64,000 nt of DNA, taken from assembly GCA_016195025.1 (NCBI GenBank), contig JACQAL010000016.1, positions 62,001 to 126,000 on the forward strand, read 5' to 3'. Numbering within the stretch: the stretch's first letter is position 1; every line of letters begins with the position of its first letter. Both the position numbers and the translations under genes were made by a program. The stretch is from Bacteroidota bacterium (GTDB taxonomy: Bacteria; Bacteroidota; Bacteroidia; Palsa-948). Under the pieces are notes generated by a model. That model ran no database searches, was not told the DNA's origin, and saw only the letters and a program-made list of their open reading frames with translations. Below are positions 14,462 to 60,483 of this stretch, in pieces.

Positions 14462-15446
14462 TCTGAGCGAAGCGAAGAATCTCCTCTTCATTTATTTCAT
14501 TCATGCATTTGAAATGTTTCTTCGGACATTTTGAAAAACCGAGTTTGGAACATGGGCGACAAGAAAGATTTGAGATTTGGGATTTGAGATTTGGGATTTG
14601 AGATTTTCCATAGTAAGGATACATTCCGAACTCGGGAATGGTATTTCCCCACACAGAAACAATTTCTTTTTTGAAAGCGGCAGCAATATGCATGAGTCCG
14701 GTATCGTGAGCAATAATTTTTTTTGCTTGCTTAACCAACGAAGCCGATTGATTGAGATTAAATCTGCCACATGAATTAAATACTGCCGACTGCCGGCTGC
14801 CGACTGCTGACTTGATTTGTTCTCCTTTCTCTTCATCTTCTTTCCCGCCCAGCAAAATTACCGGTAGGTTTATTTTTTGAATAATGGAAATAATTTTTTC
14901 TTTAGGCAATTGCTTGGTAAAATATTTTGCACCGATTACAAACCCAACATATCCATTTTGAAATTCTGCAGGAAGCGTTTTTAAATCCACTTCATCCTTT
15001 GTTGGAATAAAATAATCCAGTCCTCTTTCATCATTTTCTATTCCCAAAGATTTCACCGTTGAAAAATACCGGTCAACAATATGAATGTTCGGAAGTTTGT
15101 TGATTCGAAAATTCACCATCAGCCATTTTTCAATATTCAATTTGGAAAAAGATTTTGATTTCTTTTTAAGGATGGACTTCACTTGTGCCGAGCGCAGATT
15201 ATGATGAAGGTCAATTATGAAATCATAATTTTCTTTTTTCAGTTCCGCAGAAACTTCGGATACATTTTTTTCGATGGTATAAATTTTATTGAGGTACGGA
15301 TTACTCTCAAGAATCGGAGAGAATTGTTTTTTGGTAATGTAATGCACCTCGGCACTGTTCGCTTGTTGTTTAATACAGCGGATAATCGGTGTAGTTAGAA
15401 CTATATCTCCGATGGAACTGAAGCGTATGATAAGTATCTTAGTCAA
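14451..15446 (-). CDS. Glycosyltransferase family 9 (heptosyltransferase)
   Basis: A 331-residue GT-B enzyme of the ADP-heptose:LPS heptosyltransferase family. MTKILIIRFSSIGDIVLTTP is the N-terminal signature; VILLGGKEDEEKGEQI, AHDTGLMHIAAAFKKEIVSVWG and the cysteine cluster CRPCSKLGFSKCPKKHFKC fit. It should add heptose to the LPS core, consistent with gmhA and kdsB nearby. Three stretches are written by interspersed repeats: KSAVGSRQSAVFN (heptads at 14782-14809), KSQIPNLKSQISNL (heptads at 14567-14607) and the C-terminus EEILRFAQNDN (PERSRR element). All keep the frame open and avoid the catalytic motifs. Confidence 0.9.
   Translation of the reverse strand: MTKILIIRFSSIGDIVLTTPIIRCIKQQANSAEVHYITKKQFSPILESNPYLNKIYTIEKNVSEVSAELKKENYDFIIDLHHNLRSAQVKSILKKKSKSFSKLNIEKWLMVNFRINKLPNIHIVDRYFSTVKSLGIENDERGLDYFIPTKDEVDLKTLPAEFQNGYVGFVIGAKYFTKQLPKEKIISIIQKINLPVILLGGKEDEEKGEQIKSAVGSRQSAVFNSCGRFNLNQSASLVKQAKKIIAHDTGLMHIAAAFKKEIVSVWGNTIPEFGMYPYYGKSQIPNLKSQISNLSCRPCSKLGFSKCPKKHFKCMNEINEEEILRFAQNDN
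14454..14479. repeat. PERSRR element, copy 1 (encodes a C-terminus)
   Basis: GTCATTCTGAGCGAAGCGAAGAATCT family. On the minus strand it codes the last residues ILRFAQNDN of the GT9 protein. Confidence 0.75.
14567..14607. repeat. In-frame heptad array (GATTTGA/GATTTGG)
   Basis: Five perfect 7-bp words strictly alternating GATTTGA and GATTTGG (14567-14601) plus a partial sixth. It lies in the coding region of the GT9 gene, encoding a KSQI-PNL-KSQI-SNL pattern next to the Cys cluster. Confidence 0.9.
14782..14809. repeat. In-frame heptad array (ACTGCCG)
   Basis: Four 7-bp words: ACTGCCG, ACTGCCG, GCTGCCG, ACTGCTG. Inside the same GT9 gene, encoding SAVGSRQSAV. Confidence 0.85.
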
Positions 15447-20539: not shown

Positions 20540-20578
20540 GACTTAAGAAATTATAAATTAAAAATTATAGATTATAAA

Positions 20579-20890
20579 TTATGACTTGATATCCTGAATT
20601 TCGATTTTGGTTAAGTACTGTCTGTGCCCGTTCATCTTCGCGTAGCCCTTGCGTCTTTTCTTTTTAAAGACCATCACTTTATCGGCTTTCAGATGTTCAA
20701 CAATTTTCGCGCTGATGGAAGCGCCTTTCACGTTAGGCATTCCCACATCCACTTTCCCTTCGTTATCCACGAGGAGAACTTTGTCAAAGTTCACTGAATC
20801 GCCTTCGTTTCCTTCGAGGCGGTGAACAAAAATCTGCTGGTTCTTGTGAACCTTGAATTGCTGTCCGGCAATATCTACTATAGCGTACAT
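20579..20890 (-). CDS. rplU: Large ribosomal subunit protein bL21
   Basis: A 103-residue protein. MYAIVDIAGQQFKVHKNQQI at the start and KKRRKGYAKMNGHRQYLTKI near the end are L21 signatures. First gene of the rplU-rpmA operon; a possible -7 box TACCTTCG lies at ~20908-20915 on the minus strand. Confidence 0.98.
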   Translation of the reverse strand: MYAIVDIAGQQFKVHKNQQIFVHRLEGNEGDSVNFDKVLLVDNEGKVDVGMPNVKGASISAKIVEHLKADKVMVFKKKRRKGYAKMNGHRQYLTKIEIQDIKS

Positions 20891-36017: not shown

Positions 36018-36317
36018 ATGAAAACAAGAGTTACATATCAGAGAACGGCAGAAGCTTCTGAAACGTTTCAGAATAATCCTGAGGCAACGCAGCATTTCTC
36101 TGCGGTAACGCGAAATTTCTCTGTGCTGACACGGGAACTTTCAGTGCTGACGCGAGGTTTTCTCGCGGTAACGCGAAATTTCTCTGTGCTGACGCAGGAA
36201 CTTTCAGTGCTGACGCAAGGTTTTCTCGCGGTGACGCAGAATTGTTTGGTGGTGTCGCCAGATTTTCTGGCGGCTTGTAAAAAGCAAAAATCAATTAAAA
36301 AACAAAACATAAATTAA
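36018..36317 (+). CDS. Small protein of tandem heptapeptide repeats
   Basis: 99 residues if the A-rich ATG at 36018 is used (MKTRVTYQRTAEASETFQNN). The frame is open further upstream to 35808 but that part overlaps the LytTR gene. Residues ~24-86 are nine heptapeptides of the type FSVLTRE / LSVLTRG / FLAVTRN, each from one 21-bp unit, ending in a Lys-rich tail. It could be a beta-solenoid-like repeat protein. However, all three frames on both strands stay mostly open, as expected of a 21-bp repeat, so coding is not proven. It is 11 nt from the next gene. Confidence 0.4.
   Translation: MKTRVTYQRTAEASETFQNNPEATQHFSAVTRNFSVLTRELSVLTRGFLAVTRNFSVLTQELSVLTQGFLAVTQNCLVVSPDFLAACKKQKSIKKQNIN
36087..36275. 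repeat. Nine tandem 21-bp units, many with hairpin symmetry
   Basis: Units start at 36087, 36108, 36129, 36150, 36171, 36192, 36213, 36234 and 36255. Several are near-palindromic: CGCGAGGTTTTCTCGCG, CGCCAGATTTTCTGGCG, CGCAG...CTGCG. Units 2-4 and 5-7 form a 63-bp duplication with only a few changes. An 18-bp perfect palindrome TTCTGAAACGTTTCAGAA lies just before, at 36056-36073. Confidence 0.9.
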
Positions 36318-38802: not shown

Positions 38803-39822
38803 TTAATTCGTCTCCAGCACTTTCAGCAGTTCATCTAATTTAGGAGTGAGAATGATTTCCGTTCTGCGGTTTTTGGCGCGGGCTTCTTTTGTTTTTGAAT
38901 CATCGAGCGGAAAATATTCTCCCCTGCCCGCTGCGGTTAAGCGCTTGGGGTCAACTGAACTGTTGGAAGTAATTATTTTCACTACGGAAGTGGCGCGCAC
39001 CGCGCTCAAATCCCAGTTGTCTTTCACATCGCCCATGCCTTTCATGGGCACATCATCGGTATGCCCTTCCACCATTACGTTTATATCGGAATTTGTTTCG
39101 AGCACCTTCGCCAGTTTTTTCAGCACCTCCTGCCCTTTGGGTTCTACCGCCCATTTGCCGGTGGCAAAGAGCAAACTTTCTTCCATGGATACATATACTT
39201 TCCCGTTCTTCTGCGTAATGGTCAAGCCCTTTCCTTCAAAGCCCGTGAGCGCATCGGAGATTTTTTTCTTCAGCGCATTCACCGCTTCGTCTTTCTGCTT
39301 GAGAATATCTTCGAGTTCTTTCACGCGCTGCTCGCGCTGCTTGAGTTGGTCGGTGAGCGCGTCCAAGTCCTTTTTCTTCTGATCAAGTTGGGTTTGCAGT
39401 TGCTTGAGGTCGTCTTCTTTGCGCTGCAACTGCTCCTGCGTGGAGGATAACTGCCCGCTCAGTTTCTGACTTTCGGAATTGCTTCCGGAAAGCAGCCGGT
39501 TGTATTTATCAAGAAGTTTCTCATTCAAATCATTTAACTTATCGTATTTCGAAACAAGGTTTCTGTAATTGGTGCCGGTGATGGAAGTGTCTTTCTGCAA
39601 TCCTGCCAATTGTTTTTCTTCTTCCGCCATTTTATTTTTCAGTTCCGAAAGTTCGGTTTCCATTTTCTGCGAAGATGATTTGCAGTTCGCTAAATCTTTT
39701 TCGCAGTTCTCGCGCTTGGTTTTTTCATCAAGGAATTTGCTTTGCGGAACGCAGGCGAAAAAGCCGGTAAGCAGCAAGCAGTAAGCAGCGGGCAGTAACA
39801 GGCGGGTGAAATGTTTTTTCAT
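38803..39822 (-). CDS. OmpA-family lipoprotein with coiled coil
   Basis: 339 residues. The lipoprotein signal ends LLLTGFFACVPQ (Cys ~25). Residues ~35-190 form a long coiled coil (Gln/Lys/Leu-rich), and ~215-330 an OmpA peptidoglycan-binding domain (VMVEGHTDDVPMKGMGDVKD, LSAVRATSVVKII, RLTAAGRGEYFPL, KNRRTEIILTP). It should tether the outer membrane to peptidoglycan. The signal peptide's core (LLLPAAYCLLLTG) is encoded by a heptad array. Its 3' end is duplicated 1.6 kb away. Confidence 0.93.
   Translation of the reverse strand: MKKHFTRLLLPAAYCLLLTGFFACVPQSKFLDEKTKRENCEKDLANCKSSSQKMETELSELKNKMAEEEKQLAGLQKDTSITGTNYRNLVSKYDKLNDLNEKLLDKYNRLLSGSNSESQKLSGQLSSTQEQLQRKEDDLKQLQTQLDQKKKDLDALTDQLKQREQRVKELEDILKQKDEAVNALKKKISDALTGFEGKGLTITQKNGKVYVSMEESLLFATGKWAVEPKGQEVLKKLAKVLETNSDINVMVEGHTDDVPMKGMGDVKDNWDLSAVRATSVVKIITSNSSVDPKRLTAAGRGEYFPLDDSKTKEARAKNRRTEIILTPKLDELLKVLETN
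39767..39801. repeat. Heptad array writing a lipoprotein signal peptide
   Basis: Five 7-bp words GTAAGCA, GCAAGCA, GTAAGCA, GCGGGCA, GTAACAG; reverse complement of the TACTGCT type. In frame in the ompA-like gene. Confidence 0.85.
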
Positions 39823-43565: not shown

Positions 43566-43601
43566 ACGAATTACGAATGAAGACGAATTACGAATTACGA
43601 A
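43566..43601. repeat. ACGAA/TACGAAT heptads spanning a start codon
   Basis: ACGAA cores at 43566, 43573, 43583, 43590 and 43597 (spacings 7, 10, 7, 7). The last three encode TNYELRI at the start of the giant outer-membrane protein. On the minus strand it is a TTCGT element upstream of xth. Confidence 0.75.
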
Positions 43602-46600
43602 TTGCTTTTGCTTTTTTATTGTCTATTGTTTTTTGTTTACTGTCTATTACTTCTTTTTCCCAATCAAATTTGCGCATAAAAATAATTTCTCTTTCCAAAG
43701 ACACAACGCAACTTGATTCGCTCAGTATAATTCCCGGAACTGTTTCACTGAAAGATTCCAACGGGGCAATCATTGATTCTTCTAAATATAAAATTGACTA
43801 CGTAAATGCTTTGCTGATTCGAAAAGGAAAGTTTTCAGATACAATAAATATTTCTTACAAAGTTTTTCCCTTTCTCTTCTCCAAAAAATTTCAGCACAAG
43901 GATATTAGTAAAATTCAGAACAATCAATTTGGCGAACCGTACATTTACTCCTATGATAAAAAAAATGATGTTGACTTTTTCAAAACGGAAGGGCTCACAA
44001 AAAGTGGAAGCATTTCGCGCGGGCTGTCGTTCGGAAATAATCAGGATGTAGTTCTGAATTCAAATCTCAATCTTCAGCTCGCAGGAAAACTCAGCGAGAA
44101 CATTGACATTCTCATGGCTGCCACCGACCAGAATATTCCCATTCAGCCCGAGGGAAACACGCAGCAGTTGCAGGAGTTTGATAAAGTTTTTATTCAACTT
44201 GGCATAAAAGATTTACCCGCGAAAGGAAAAACCACTGTGACTGCCGGAGATTTCCAAATCGGTAAGCCGAAAGGATATTTTATGAACTTCAACAAAAAGT
44301 TGCAAGGATTAAGTTTCGAAACAAAATATTCTCCAACTCAATCCCTCCTAACTGTAAAAGCCAGCGCTGCCATTTCAAAAGGAAAGTTCGCAAGAAATAT
44401 TTCTGCGGAAAGTTCGAATGGAAATACTTTCAACGGAACGAAGCAGGAAAGAAATCAGGGTCCGTATAAACTTCGCGGAGCGGAGAACGAACAATTCATT
44501 ATTGTTCTCGCAGGAACGGAAAAAGTTTTTCTCGATGGAAGATTGCTCGAACGCGGGCAGGAAAATGATTACACGATTAATTACAACACTTCCGAAATTA
44601 TTTTCACTCCGAAAAATTTAATTACGAAAGACAAACGCATTGTGGTGGAGTTTCAGTATTCGGATAAAAATTATGCGCGTTCGCTCATTCACGCGGGAAC
44701 GGAATACGAAAGCAAAAAAGTGAGCGCGCGCATAAATATTTACAACGAGCAGGACAACAAAAACAAACCGCTTCAGCAGGAACTCACCGACCCGCAGAAA
44801 AAATTGCTCGCGGGCATTGGCGATAGTTTGCAATATGCAATCTGGCCTTCTGCCGACAGCATTGCGTTCAACGGAACGGAAGTTTTGTATCATAAGGAAG
44901 ACACAACCATCGGCACGCATTTCTATCCCGGAATTTTTGTTTACTCCACCGACAGCACGAAAGCGCATTACCGTCTGAGTTTTTCCTTCGTGGGCGCGAA
45001 CAAAGGAAATTATAATCTGAAACAATCGGCAGCGAATGGAAAAGTTTACGAATGGATTTTGCCCGATACAATTACGGGACAACTCAAAGGTTCTTACGAG
45101 CCGGAAATTCTTCTCATTGCACCAAAGCAAAAACAAATGATCACTGCCGGAGCGGATTTTCTCATCGGGAAAAATTCAAAACTTTCTCTCGAAGGCGCAG
45201 CGAGCAACAACAACATAAATACTTTTTCAAATCTTGATAAAGCAAATGACAAAGGGTTTGCGGGAAAAATGAATTGGGATATGGCTGTGCCGATTTTTCA
45301 TTCTTCCGATTCAACTCGCAGCGATACTGCAAAGGGAAAATATTCGCGATGGAATTTACTGACGAATATAAATTATGAGTTCGTCCAGAAAACTTTTTCT
45401 CCTATAGAAAGATTCCGCTCGGTGGAGTTTGAGCGCGACTGGAATTTGAATAATCTCACAGCAAAAGATGACCAGCACATCATTGGCGGAAGCATTGGCG
45501 TTGCGAAAAAAGAAAATATCATTGCCTATGATTATAAATCTTTTTTGCAGGGAGATGTTTACAACGGAGCGAAACATTCCGCCCGCACAAATCTTGGCTA
45601 CAAAGGTTTGCTCTTCACGTTCGATGGAAGTTATCTCGATTCGAAAAGTTTTGTCAACCGCACAAATTATCTGCGCAGCAAATCTTCCCTTTCGCAGAAA
45701 ATAAAAAACTTCACCCTAGGAATCCGCGAACAGCAGGAACAAAATCTGATTAAGTCAAAAAATGTTGATTCACTTGTAGCAGGAACGTTGCAGTATTACG
45801 AGTGGGAACCGTTCGCGGAGTTTCGCGATTCATCGAATAACAAATACACAATTAACTATAAGCAGCGAACGGATTACGCTTTAAAAAACATTGGCGTTAC
45901 AGGATTTCCTTCTTTGCAAAAAGCAACCTTCGCGGAAAATTACGGAGGAGGAATCGAGTTGTTCAGCAATCCGAATTCGCAATTCAGAATTACGGGGAGT
46001 TACCGCAAGCTCACCATTCTCGATACAAATATCACTTCGCAAAAGCCGGAGAACACGGTAGTGGGAAGAGCGGAATATAATTTTTCTCTGCTGAAAGGAT
46101 TTTTTTCTTCGAACACGTTTTATGAAATCGGTTCCGGCCTAGAATTGAAGAAGGAATTTATTTTTCTCGAAGTCGCGCCCGGAAAAGGAATTTATGTTTG
46201 GAAAGATTACAATGGTGACGGAGTAAAACAACTCAACGAGTTTGAAATTTCTCCTTTCCCGAATGAAGCGAATTATATAAAAGTGTGGACACCCACCGAT
46301 GATTACATCAGCGCGTTCACAAATCAGTTCAGCGAAGTTTTCACCGTGAAGCCCGCTGCAAAATGGTCGGATAAAAAAGGAGTACAAAAATTTATTTCCA
46401 GATTTTCTAATCAAACCGCTTACCGTACCGACCGGAAAACTACAAACAAAGATTTATCGGTTGCCTACAATCCTTTTCTCTCCGACACAAAAGACAATAC
46501 GCTCATCACGCTGAATTCCTCTATGAGAAATACGGTTTACTTCAATCAAACCGCGCCTGTTTTCGGAATGGATTACACGGTGCAGGATGTGCGCAACAAA

Positions 46601-54737: not shown

Positions 54738-56570
54738 ATGAAAATCTGTAGAAAGATTTATTTTGTTATACATTTTTTATTTTTCTTTTCTTTAAGCGAG
54801 GCACAAACCACAATAATTCTTCAGGAAAATTTTACAAACTATCTTGGCACATCCGCCACCGTTCCCGCAGGATGGAATTTTTCCTACAACGGAAATTATA
54901 CTTCCTCCACTTTTTCAGGAAACAGCGGACCAAACTCATACAAGTTCGGAGCGACCGCAGCAAGAATCATCACGCCAAAATTTTCAAATGCCGATTCGGT
55001 TTTGTTCTGGCTGAAAGGTTCGGCAACCGACACGCTGAGTTTTCTTACGGTGGAAGAAACTTCCGACAGCATTTCGTGGAGTAGCATTTCAAAAATAATT
55101 CCGATTCCAACCACCGGAACAACTTTTCGTTTGCCGGTAAAAAATTCTTCCATTGAACTTCGTTTCACCTATACAAAATCGGCAGGCAATCTTGCGTTTG
55201 ATGATTTTGCTTTGCTTCGTGACAGCACGCTTGCTTCCGGTGGATGGATAAAAGTTTATTTCAATCACCCGGTGAATACTTCTGTTTCCACAGGAGCAAA
55301 TGCGATTTACTTAAATCAAACCATTGACGATACGCTTGTGCGATATATTGACAGCGCGAAATATTCTATTGATGTTGCCGTTTATAATTATTCCCAATCT
55401 CCAAGCATTGCAAATATTTCTGGTGCGATAAATAATGCGTATAGCCGCGGAGTAAAAATACGTTGGATATACGATGGCTCTTCGACCAACAGCGGGCTGG
55501 CTCAGTTGAATGCAAATATTAAAACTCTTGCAAGTCCCACTTCGGGAAATTACGGCATCATGCATGATAAGTTTATGGTAGTTGATGTAAACTCCCCGAA
55601 TCAGAAAGATGCAATTGTGTGGACGGCTTCGAGCAACTGGAACTACCAGCAGTTTTACAACGATGTGAATAATTATGTCATCATTCAGGATAAAAATATT
55701 GCGAATGCTTACACAACCGAGTTCAATGAAATGTGGGGAGGAACCGCGCTTGCTCCCGATACAATACTTTCAAAGTTTGGTCCGTACAAAACAAATAATA
55801 CGTTTCATGTTTTTTATGTTGGCGGAAAAAAAGTGGAAGTATATTTCCGTCCGACCGACAGTGCAGCTTCGCATCTTCTTTCTTCCATCAAAAGCGCAGA
55901 CAATGATTTGTATTTTGGAATTTATGCTTTCAATTACAACACCACTGCCGATTCCATTAAGAGCAGAATTCAAAAAGGAATTTACACAGCGGGAATCATG
56001 GATGCGTGGAGCCAAACTTACTCCCCATACACAACACTTCAGCCCATGATGGGAAGCAATCTGAAAATTTTTTCGAACACGCCCACGTTGTATCACAATA
56101 AATTTTTAATTGCAGACCCGTGCAATTCTCTTTCTGACCCGCTGGTTGTGACCGGAACTTATAACTGGACAAATTCTGCGGAAACAAAAAATGACGAGAA
56201 CATGTTAATTATTCACGATGATTCCATTGCGAATATGTTTTACCAATCGTTCTACCAGAACTTTTTAGATTTGGGCGGAACGCTTTCTGCTTGCACGCCA
56301 ACGGGCATCAATGAAATTTCAGAAGATGAAATAAAAAATTTTCCTAATCCATCCGAAGGAAAGTTCCAAGTCTCAATCCTCAAGTCTCAAGTCTCAAGTT
56401 TGGAAATCTATAATGTAATGGGAGAAAAAATTTATTCTTTGTCCCCCTCCGGAGGGGGTGCAGGGGGAGGACTTACAATTGATTTGTCTTCTCAGCCAAA
56501 CGGAATTTATTTCCTGCAAACAAATTCCGGTGGAAAACATTTCACAAGCAAAATAATTATCCAGCATTAG
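54738..56570 (+). CDS. Secreted phospholipase-D-like protein with T9SS tail
   Basis: 610 residues; signal peptide ends at LSEAQ. Residues ~25-160 are a beta-rich adhesion-like module. Two PLD/HKD motifs follow: MHDKFMVVDVNSPNQKDAIV (~277) and YHNKFLIADPCNSLSDPLVV (~455), each H-x-K-x4-D with later N/S residues. The T9SS domain has FPNPSEGKFQVSI ... PNGIYFLQTNSGGK. Likely an extracellular nuclease or phospholipase. The sorting domain contains a heptad array and a GC-rich palindrome, both in frame (QVSILKSQVSSLEI; SPSGGGAGGG). Confidence 0.88.
   Translation: MKICRKIYFVIHFLFFFSLSEAQTTIILQENFTNYLGTSATVPAGWNFSYNGNYTSSTFSGNSGPNSYKFGATAARIITPKFSNADSVLFWLKGSATDTLSFLTVEETSDSISWSSISKIIPIPTTGTTFRLPVKNSSIELRFTYTKSAGNLAFDDFALLRDSTLASGGWIKVYFNHPVNTSVSTGANAIYLNQTIDDTLVRYIDSAKYSIDVAVYNYSQSPSIANISGAINNAYSRGVKIRWIYDGSSTNSGLAQLNANIKTLASPTSGNYGIMHDKFMVVDVNSPNQKDAIVWTASSNWNYQQFYNDVNNYVIIQDKNIANAYTTEFNEMWGGTALAPDTILSKFGPYKTNNTFHVFYVGGKKVEVYFRPTDSAASHLLSSIKSADNDLYFGIYAFNYNTTADSIKSRIQKGIYTAGIMDAWSQTYSPYTTLQPMMGSNLKIFSNTPTLYHNKFLIADPCNSLSDPLVVTGTYNWTNSAETKNDENMLIIHDDSIANMFYQSFYQNFLDLGGTLSACTPTGINEISEDEIKNFPNPSEGKFQVSILKSQVSSLEIYNVMGEKIYSLSPSGGGAGGGLTIDLSSQPNGIYFLQTNSGGKHFTSKIIIQH
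56361..56395. repeat. In-frame heptad array in a T9SS tail (AAGTCTC)
   Basis: Five words AAGTTCC, AAGTCTC, AATCCTC, AAGTCTC, AAGTCTC encode FQVSILKSQVSS between the NPSEG motif and the second strand of the sorting domain. Confidence 0.85.
56443..56470. repeat. GC-rich element in a T9SS tail
   Basis: CCCCCTCC-GGAGGGGG followed by TGCAGGGGGAGG. Encodes SPSGGGAGGG in frame. Confidence 0.85.
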
Positions 56571-58558: not shown

Positions 58559-59509
58559 TTATTTATGCTTCTTCAAATAAATTTTCTGTCCTGCGGTGGG
58601 TTCTTGTCCGTCCGTCATGTGATTGAGTTTGTAGAGGCGGGCAGTTTTAACTCCGTATAACTGGGAAATGTAATACATGGTTTCGCCAAAGCGTGCTGTG
58701 TGAAATTCTTCTTTGTGCGAATGCCTGCGCTTGGGCTGCAGGTACACCACGTTGCCCACTTCGAGGCAGGTTTGCTTTCCGGTTTCGTTATAGTTGTGCA
58801 ATTGCCAGAGGCGCATGTCGAGGTCGTACGCAATTTTGTAATACGTGTCGCCATCTTCCACCACAATATATTTTATGCCGTTGTTCATGAAAAGTTTTCG
58901 CGATGCAGAAATTTTTGAAGTGGTGGGTTTTATTATTTGCGCTTCTTCTTTTTTCTTTGCGTGTTTGTCAATTGCCATTTCCTGCATGCGGTCGTATTGA
59001 TACAGTTTTAAATCATCTATGAGTTTTATCAAACGGTCGGCATAGCTTGGATCGGTGGCGTAGCCGGCTTCGTGCAACCCTTCTGCCCATCCTTTGTAAT
59101 CTGTTTTCCGCAGCTCGAACAAAAAAGCATAGCGCCCTTTTGATTTCAGAAAACTGGAATGGTCATCGAAAGATCCTTCCACTTCTTTGTATTTGCGGAA
59201 GCATTCATCTTTTTTATCGTCATCCTGAATATAGGTTTCGCCTTTCCAATCATCGCCATGGCATTTTATTCCGAAGTGATTATTGGCGTACATCGCGAGC
59301 GCGCTATTGCCGTTATCGGATTCTAAAAGTCCCTGCGCGAGCGTGATGCTGGCGGGAATTCCGTTCACGAGCATTTCTTTTATTGCAGCGTCTTTATATT
59401 TCTCTACATAATCTGCACGGGTCATTTTGTATTCTGCAGGCTGGGAGAAGCAAGTTAAAAGTGACAAGTTAAAAGTTAAAAGTAAAATGCAAAATGCAGA
59501 ATGTCTCAT
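58559..59509 (-). CDS. Glucosaminidase-type peptidoglycan hydrolase with LysM domains
   Basis: 316 residues. After the signal peptide, residues ~30-180 form a mannosyl-glycoprotein endo-beta-N-acetylglucosaminidase domain (NGIPASITLAQGLLESDNGN with the likely catalytic Glu; HFGIKCHGDDWKGETY; FRKYKEVEGSFDDHSSFLKS; GYATDPSYADRLIKLIDD). Two LysM motifs follow (IVVEDGDTYYKIAYDLDMRL; ARFGETMYYISQLYGVKTAR). It should trim peptidoglycan at division. The whole signal peptide (SAFCILLLTFNLSLLTC) is encoded by eight heptads. Confidence 0.9.
   Translation of the reverse strand: MRHSAFCILLLTFNLSLLTCFSQPAEYKMTRADYVEKYKDAAIKEMLVNGIPASITLAQGLLESDNGNSALAMYANNHFGIKCHGDDWKGETYIQDDDKKDECFRKYKEVEGSFDDHSSFLKSKGRYAFLFELRKTDYKGWAEGLHEAGYATDPSYADRLIKLIDDLKLYQYDRMQEMAIDKHAKKKEEAQIIKPTTSKISASRKLFMNNGIKYIVVEDGDTYYKIAYDLDMRLWQLHNYNETGKQTCLEVGNVVYLQPKRRHSHKEEFHTARFGETMYYISQLYGVKTARLYKLNHMTDGQEPTAGQKIYLKKHK
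59452..59507. repeat. Eight in-phase heptads writing a signal peptide
   Basis: AAGTTAA, AAGTGAC, AAGTTAA, AAGTTAA, AAGTAAA, ATGCAAA, ATGCAGA, ATGTCTC. It ends at the start codon of the glucosaminidase gene; the hydrophobic core is entirely repeat-derived. Confidence 0.9.
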
Positions 59510-59597: not shown

Positions 59598-60483
59598 GCA
59601 ACTTGCCTTGTAGTCCACCTGTGTGGATGGCGATAACGGTAGAATTCTTTGGAAAATAATTTTTCTTTATCAAATCATAAATGCCGAACATCATCTTGCC
59701 TGTGTAAACTTGTTCGAGCGGAATATTATTTTCTTTTTCAAAATCAGAAATGAATTTTAAAAGTTCGGGTGTGTGTTTTGCATAACCACCGAAGTGGTAG
59801 CTTGTATTGATTTCCCCCTTTGAAGGGGGTAAGGGGGATGTTAAAAGTTTTTCGATTTCATTTTTCAAAAACCCTCCATCTTTCAAAACCGAAAACCCAA
59901 TTGCTTTCTGATCTTTTCTGAGAGAAGAAATGACTCCTGCTATTGTTCCGCCAGTTCCAATAGGGCAACAAACAAAATCAAAGGGAATGTTAACATGAGA
60001 AATAATTTCAGAACACCCTTTTACTGCGAGAGAATTTGTTCCGCCTTCGGGAAGAAGATAAAAGTTAGTAAGTGATGAGGTGATTGAGTGAATTAGTTCA
60101 GAAGAGTTTTTGTTTTTGTATTCTTCTCTAGAAACGAAAATTAATTTCATCCCACAATCTTCAGCAAACTTTAGAGTTTGGTTTTTCTCCCCTCCTTCGG
60201 AGGGGTTGGGGGAGGCCAATTCATCTCCGCGAATAATTCCGATTGTTTTAAATCCAAATTCTTTTCCTGCAGCAGCAGTTGCTGTAATGTGATTGGAATA
60301 TGCTCCGCCAAAAGTGAGAAGCGTATCTTTCTTCTGTCTCTTCGCTTCTTCAAGATTGTATTTCAGTTTGTACCATTTGTTCCCGGAAATAGTTGGATGG
60401 ATTTTATCCAGCCGAAGAATGAACAGGTTAATTCCTGATTTTTCTATAGCGGGATTTGAAATTTTCTGCAAAGGAATTTCCAT
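59587..60483 (-). CDS. ACC deaminase / D-cysteine desulfhydrase-family PLP enzyme
   Basis: 298 residues, fold type II. The PLP-lysine region is HPTISGNKWYKLKYNLEEAK (Lys in NKWYKLK); TFGGAYSNHITATAAAGKEF, LLPEGGTNSLAVKGCSEI and CCPIGTGGTIAGVISSL match the D-cysteine desulfhydrase / ACC deaminase family. It would convert a small D-amino acid to pyruvate or a keto acid plus ammonia and sulfide. Three GC-rich repeat elements are inside the gene: ELASPNPSEGGEKN, LTSPLPPSKGEINT and the C-terminus. The inserts lie outside the PLP motifs. Confidence 0.88.
   Translation of the reverse strand: MEIPLQKISNPAIEKSGINLFILRLDKIHPTISGNKWYKLKYNLEEAKRQKKDTLLTFGGAYSNHITATAAAGKEFGFKTIGIIRGDELASPNPSEGGEKNQTLKFAEDCGMKLIFVSREEYKNKNSSELIHSITSSLTNFYLLPEGGTNSLAVKGCSEIISHVNIPFDFVCCPIGTGGTIAGVISSLRKDQKAIGFSVLKDGGFLKNEIEKLLTSPLPPSKGEINTSYHFGGYAKHTPELLKFISDFEKENNIPLEQVYTGKMMFGIYDLIKKNYFPKNSTVIAIHTGGLQGKLPQL
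59814..59839. repeat. In-frame GC-rich element
   Basis: CCCCCTT-TG-AAGGGGG then TAAGGGGGAT. Encodes LTSPLPPSKGE. Confidence 0.85.
60189..60215. repeat. In-frame GC-rich element
   Basis: CCCCTCC-TTC-GGAGGGG then TTGGGGGAGG. Encodes ASPNPSEGGE. Confidence 0.85.

Follow-up and report, generated by a model that had tools for sequence, protein, structure and literature searches.

The closest known case to the repeat described here is the CTCTT pentamer in the leader-peptide coding region of the Neisseria opa genes, for which phase variation is proven (PMC5354566, PMC3745409). Tandem 7-bp units are known as STRR in the cyanobacteria Calothrix and Nostoc, where those studied, as reviewed in PMC4692102, comprise few defined units over-represented in noncoding DNA. 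As cited in the same review, Lin and Kussell reported that simple sequence repeats are avoided in mid-gene and enriched near the N terminus in prokaryotic genes; the work as cited deals with repeats in general, read as phase variation, and not with signal peptides or period 7 (PMC4692102). TAACTGA repeats, which have one fixed unit, occur in Beggiatoaceae, some Cyanobacteria, and five Bacteroidetes, mostly in intergenic DNA and many of them just upstream of start codons; translation is named as a constraint on their strand, whereas no role in signal peptides is reported and the term is absent from the paper (PMC4679880). Slippage has been proposed for heptanucleotide repeats generally (Mrazek 2007, as reported in PMC4679880).

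The rapid divergence of signal peptides is well known, whereas the origin of new ones is an open question. Here, we describe a heptad array that spells a signal peptide in the window, i.e., the whole 64-kb stretch that was analyzed from a genome of an uncultured Bacteroidota genus, along with similar arrays elsewhere in this genome and its relatives. Like the opa repeat, the reported array has a T/C-rich tandem unit that is not a multiple of three and lies inside the coding region of the leader, where copy number sets the frame. However, opa switching is proven and rests on perfect copies of a single unit confined to a single gene family, whereas the heptad arrays involve 7-bp units that vary by gene and species, are mostly degenerate, and occur in many gene families without demonstrated switching; the reported array in particular is not the near-perfect, fast-slipping kind. 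With the STRR, they share 7-bp tandem units dispersed over the genome, but they comprise many units and reach their highest density in coding signal peptides, unlike the mainly noncoding location of the former. The link to cyanobacterial STRR drawn in the initial annotation of this DNA thus survives only as an analogy, and we discarded it as a frame of reference: the genome is from Bacteroidota, and the orthologues of the gene concerned all lie in Bacteroidetes assemblies, with Bacteroidetes MAGs, groundwater ones among them, as closest relatives. Repeats in a leader, repeats near N termini, and heptads near gene starts are already known. Within the open-licence literature, the only literature covered, we found no report of changing heptads building signal peptides across many genes.

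Results

The gene at 58559 to 59509 (minus strand) encodes a 316-aa secreted cell-wall hydrolase with glucosaminidase (Pfam PF01832, E = 1.5e-35) and LysM (PF01476, E = 4.3e-12) domains. Its signal-peptide core, SAFCILLLTFNLSLLT, is a 7-bp tandem array that uses all three frames. On the minus strand from the ATG (59509 to 59507), the sequence reads ATGAGA CATTCTG CATTTTG CATTTTA CTTTTAA CTTTTAA CTTGTCA CTTTTAA CTT GCTTCTCCCAG. The array occupies codons 3 to 19 (59452 to 59503) and consists of about 7.4 degenerate units in two subfamilies, CATTTTG and CTTTTAA, with a lag-7 score of 24. Over the 58 bases originally claimed, lag-7 identity is 39/51, the highest value in the window; lags other than multiples of 7 gave 9 to 21 matches. 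TRF independently called period 7 at 59452 to 59487 and at 59484 to 59503. Codon shuffling of signal peptides never produced an array this strong, which rules out chance. The resulting N-terminal peptide is MRH-SAFCILLLTFNLSLLTC-FSQ, with ATG-AGA outside the array. The initial annotation was right in substance about the sequence, the coordinates, the peptide, and a heptad array spelling the signal peptide. Its description as eight words in perfect phase ending at the start codon needs correction, since ATGAGAC is not part of the array and the regularity resides in the spacing and not in the identity of the units. Directly behind the array, at 59441 to 59451 (minus strand), lies the c-region with the predicted cleavage zone between CFSQ and PAEY. 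This zone is kept across the genus, reading FSQP, FAQP, or LSQP in all five species. The arrangement of MRH, core, and CFSQ before P conforms to a Sec or lipoprotein signal peptide, and elsewhere the arrays terminate at xAQ/xSQ or at the Cys of a lipobox; cleavage sites directly follow the arrays in both the glucosaminidase orthologues and the other array genes. These assignments were made without SignalP, and the export function of the peptides is inferred in the absence of an export assay.

Because 7 leaves a remainder of 1, a unit containing TAA is tolerable in two of three frames. The glucosaminidase gene has TTTTAAC at offsets 28, 35, and 49, and the two deviating units, ATTTTAC (offset 21, 59482 to 59488, minus strand) and TTGTCAC (offset 42, 59461 to 59467), stand in frame 0, at the only places in the TTTTAAC stretch where TAA would be in frame; their codons are TTA and TCA, and they are spaced by 21 bp. 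An array elsewhere, at L064, reads TTCATTT TTAATTT TTAATTT TTCATTT TTAATTT; its first and fourth units, in which a stop would be in frame, have TCA instead. The replacement of in-frame stops with a 21-bp rhythm in both arrays indicates that such arrays are under the constraints of coding DNA. Stop triplets were present in 5/34 units in signal-peptide cores and 6/46 in mid-gene arrays but 41/66 on intergenic strands, and the predicted in-frame stops were mutated in all stop-containing signal-peptide arrays.

Heptad arrays were counted in 61 stretches of the same genome (the window plus 60 others; 1.14 Mb of 3.5 Mb), with genes derived from a codon-usage chain of open reading frames (ORFs), signal peptides flagged by hydropathy, and start sites that are approximate. 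Strong arrays, defined as lag-7 segments with a score of at least 13, numbered 102, whereas segments of such a score numbered 24 at lag 8, mostly intergenic, and 0 to 7 at each of lags 5, 6, and 9 to 13. For signal-peptide genes, the density of lag-7 arrays in the first 90 nt was 828 per Mb, compared with 199 in intergenic DNA, 118 in the first 90 nt of other genes, 48 in mid-gene, and 12 in the last 90 nt. Density in signal peptides is thus ∼17-fold that of all other coding DNA (odds ratio 17, p = 6e-20) and ∼4-fold that of intergenic DNA, in agreement with the initial proposal of a period-7 excess within 90 nt of the gene start. The same comparison with other coding DNA in the sister species G001 gave an odds ratio of 30 (p = 1.5e-8). 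Arrays with a score of at least 13 were found in 23 of 336 signal-peptide genes, against 0 in codon shuffles and 0 to 1 at lags 5, 6, and 8 to 13; about 7 to 10% of signal-peptide genes, belonging to many families, are affected. Six gene-start matches filed as non-signal-peptide proved by eye to be signal peptides or membrane anchors missed by the crude test, so that the separation is, if anything, understated, and genes with neither feature are nearly array-free in their first 90 nt. As a caveat, T-rich heptads are hydrophobic by composition, which eases their call as signal peptides. Arrays crowd gene starts on both sides, with 360 per Mb at positions −40 to 0 and 737 per Mb at +30 to +60. 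A 50-kb stretch of Escherichia coli contained no lag-7 array.

The units themselves are diverse. Some recur at several sites (AACCATC, AAATCTC, and ACTTTTC), but many different ones exist overall and only the spacing of 7 is common to them; TAACTGA is the unit of none of the coding arrays listed. The expectation that other signal peptides of this genome would be heptad-built was correct, although mostly with other units than the same 7-mers. A single dispersed unit family, the CTTTTAACTTTTAAC pattern, was rejected, since it occurs at seven places only in the genome and spacing, not unit, is what is shared. Some arrays are perfect, with 4 to 5 units, while most, including that of the glucosaminidase gene, are degenerate; examples of perfect ones lie at L176:14553-14590, L071:10883-10919, and L058:13912-13946. 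The strongest lag-7 array of the first sample is intergenic, with nine perfect GACCAGC units (L060:463-525).

Composition differs by place. In signal-peptide cores, the coding strand of the arrays is rich in T (T fraction 0.51; mean hydropathy, +1.46) and mostly free of stops, as in the heptad-built cores FLLFTFHFSLFTYSQ, FLIFNFSFLIS, ITFCLLPSAFCLAQ, and YLLLLTSYFLLA, whereas mid-gene arrays have an A fraction of 0.37 and a mean hydropathy of −0.62. A-rich arrays yield charged n-regions, exemplified by MIVKSKVKSQKSKV and MKIQNSKFKIQK, or, in cytosolic proteins, hydrophilic loops. Mid-gene arrays sit at tolerant places, among them the T9SS sorting domain (PF18962) and a glycine dehydrogenase loop that reads LNPKSQIPNPKS in the reported genome, heptad-like NQQPTTIK and NHQPSTIK in two sisters, and a palindrome-like dispersed repeat in a third. 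Hydrophilic arrays were also seen in four housekeeping-type genes (L067:652-684, L074:3308-3337, L047:3343-3372, and L077:18278-18303), namely, those for glycine dehydrogenase, assigned by Pfam, and for methionine synthase, dihydroorotate dehydrogenase, and glutamyl-tRNA synthetase, assigned by eye from N-terminal sequence only.

Other arrays within the window illustrate these placements. A 1,196-aa secreted protein has a second heptad-built signal peptide (43583 to 43646, plus strand), with ACGAATT units in the n-region and TTGTTTA-like units in the core; its G001 orthologue has CTTCTTG ×5 in their place. This protein, at 43577, had no Pfam or NCBIfam match, and the name PorU was dropped for that reason. 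An OmpA-family protein has a short array (MKKHFTRLLLPAAYCLLLTGFFAC; 39769 to 39788, minus strand) in its lipoprotein signal peptide, and its sister orthologue has a shorter, nonrepeat signal peptide. A secreted protein carries an AAGTCTC array (56361 to 56399, plus strand) within its T9SS C-terminal sorting domain (PF18962), and a glycosyltransferase-9 gene on the minus strand carries both an AAATCTC/AAATCCC array with a hydrophilic reading (KSQIPNLKSQISNL; 14566 to 14606) and an AGTCGGC array (14782 to 14812). The arrays at 20548 to 20582 (minus strand), L039:12913-12942, L057:2137-2169, L062:407-429, and L197:11935-11969 end 4 to 10 nt 5′ of the start codons of genes without a signal peptide, a placement reminiscent of the TAACTGA arrays of Beggiatoaceae. 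The window further contains a 63-bp tandem repeat of 2.3 copies with a 21-bp substructure (36079 to 36237).

Orthologues were compared across six species, which share 64 to 82% identity over four concatenated proteins. In line with the proposal that the mature part would be conserved while the signal peptide changes, the mature glucosaminidase is 76 to 87% identical in four sister species, and all four have another heptad in the signal peptide (AATTCTC, CATTTTC, CTTATGC, and CTTTTGA); orthologues from distant families have ordinary, nonrepeat signal peptides. Four more genes, encoding a type I phosphodiesterase, an M1 peptidase, GldD (TIGR03512), and the 1,196-aa protein, followed the same trend, with an A-rich n-region array plus a T-rich core in GldD of 4/6 species. 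Across the five genes, an array with a score of at least 10 was kept in 13 of 21 readable sister orthologues, whereas 8 to 10% of signal-peptide genes at large have one and an array was present in only 1 of 12 orthologue pairs where the reported genome has none. Units of orthologous core arrays differed at 2.48 of 7 positions, compared with 2.51 between unrelated genes (permutation p = 0.45), and were identical in 1 of 27 orthologous pairs. The position of the array is thus conserved and its sequence is not. The five genes were chosen for having an array in the reported genome, and only 27 pairs entered the comparison of unit distances, which makes it a small test. With one assembly per species, copy-number variants within species, and hence slippage itself, could not be observed.

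Loci from other Bacteroidota (1.24 Mb around distant orthologues) contained 8 signal-peptide arrays, among them those of likely orthologues with differing units in the MAGs of L086, L087, and L088. An ACTTTTC array was present in 22 of 395 genomes of the class, a count without a valid reversed control: reversing ACTTTTC yields merely a rotation of itself, and we used the class-wide places but not the control counts. The ACTTTTC loci that were read lie all in signal peptides in four genomes of this genus and mostly outside plausible gene starts in other genera, with L247 as a clear signal peptide. Heptad arrays are thus widespread in the class, and their placement in signal peptides is unusually frequent in this genus. 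At about position 1500 of L260 (genome G304, another family), a start codon with a signal-peptide n-region, reading MKKLFLIFFTFHFSL and then a stop, is out of frame with the mature part ...SAQGLWTKK behind an ACTTTTC array; this may represent either a phase-OFF allele or an error of sequencing in this single, incomplete assembly.

Discussion

We consider it probable that 7-nt slippage repeatedly overwrites signal peptides under loose selection on frame and hydrophobicity, with the mature protein conserved. The array, its genome-wide enrichment, the differing units of orthologues, and the coding-strand and stop-triplet filters are observed directly; slippage as their generator is inferred. Replication slippage of 7 nt would generate arrays at many places in the genus, especially around gene starts, and those in coding DNA would survive only at sites that accept nearly every sequence of suitable hydropathy without stops. 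A T-rich heptad may work as a core in any frame because each frame reads Phe, Leu, Ser, Ile, Thr, or Cys, and A-rich arrays would likewise provide Lys/Gln/Ser-rich n-regions. Three units would make 21 nt, i.e., a 7-residue repeat, a period at which slippage could expand, contract, mutate, and rehomogenize the core. Selection would retain only the frame, the absence of stops, and the hydrophobicity of the core, and new heptads would overwrite the export signal time and again while the mature protein stays. If any T-rich, stop-free heptad is acceptable, the presence of the arrays, their strand, the avoidance of stops, and the lost identity of units are all explained. The initial annotation had suggested that repeat expansion created or replaced the signal. 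Replacement is well supported, since orthologous arrays have another unit at the same place, whereas creation from nothing was not demonstrated and is the less likely course because distant relatives have ordinary signal peptides.

The arrays might instead be passive debris, formed preferentially near slippage-prone or open 5′ ends and simply not purged from signal peptides, with nothing favoring them. We regard this as possible but less convincing. It accommodates the crowding of arrays just before start codons (360 per Mb at −40 to 0) and the arrays in glycine dehydrogenase loops and T9SS sorting domains; where a gene has neither signal peptide nor membrane anchor, its first 90 nt are nearly array-free. 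The debris reading does not readily accommodate a density ∼4 times the intergenic one, although the stop and hydropathy filter should lower it, nor the repeated hits in the same signal peptides of sisters (13/21 versus a background of ∼10%, and 1/12 pairs where the reported genome lacks an array). The excess over intergenic DNA in itself could reflect a mutation bias at start sites rather than selection, since arrays also crowd positions −40 to 0. That a mobile or horizontally spread repeat family akin to the TAACTGA repeats was inserted into signal peptides is very improbable: AACCATC, AAATCTC, and ACTTTTC do recur at several sites, and this genus does have dispersed, palindrome-like repeats that have entered genes, yet the many units have only their spacing in common, orthologous sites carry unrelated units, and the arrays showed no sign of a longer element common to them. 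A compositional accident, by which T-rich, low-complexity signal-peptide DNA would merely appear periodic, can practically be dismissed. Signal-peptide cores are indeed T-rich, but codon shuffles that keep composition gave 0 arrays at score 13, lags 5, 6, and 8 to 13 gave 0 to 1, and the 50 kb of E. coli had none; the shuffles and the other lags refute composition as the cause of period 7.

Phase variation of these arrays follows from the arithmetic of a 7-nt unit and is possible but unproven. It is unlikely, in our view, that they are kept as contingency loci in which unit gain or loss (7 being +1 in frame) switches secretion, as in Neisseria opa. The frame logic fits every array, some are perfect with 4 to 5 units, and L260 of G304 offers one candidate OFF state. 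However, degenerate arrays, which are the majority and include the reported one, slip little, many of the affected genes are housekeeping-like secreted ones (GldD, M1 peptidase, and the cell-wall hydrolase), and the single OFF case, known from an incomplete assembly only, could be due to faulty sequencing. Equally doubtful is the broader proposal that 7-nt slippage is a standing engine that builds, rewrites, and can frame-switch export signals across Bacteroidota, so that a new heptad array could take the place of the signal peptide in any secreted protein, with perfect arrays doubling as secretion on/off switches.

Period 7, which cannot arise from codon structure, marks overwritten signal peptides and makes their turnover countable gene by gene. 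A frame-breaking repeat can still code, here owing to the hydrophobic reading that a T-rich heptad gives in each of the three frames. The arrays also constitute a concrete set of candidate frame-switch loci in nonpathogenic Bacteroidota.

Rickettsia palindromic elements are a mobile palindromic family tolerated inside ORFs at permissive protein sites. The heptads resemble them as repeat DNA in permissive protein sites but share no sequence with them. Two in-frame, G/C-rich palindrome-like repeats in the PLP-dependent (ACC-deaminase-related) gene neighboring the glucosaminidase gene, at 59809 to 59840 and 60188 to 60216, which read SPLPPSKGE and SPNPSEGG, are reminiscent of the Rickettsia elements. 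Repeats of the same kind are present in the L233 signal peptide (FSPLLWRGTGGEA) and in the glycine dehydrogenase loop of genome G005.
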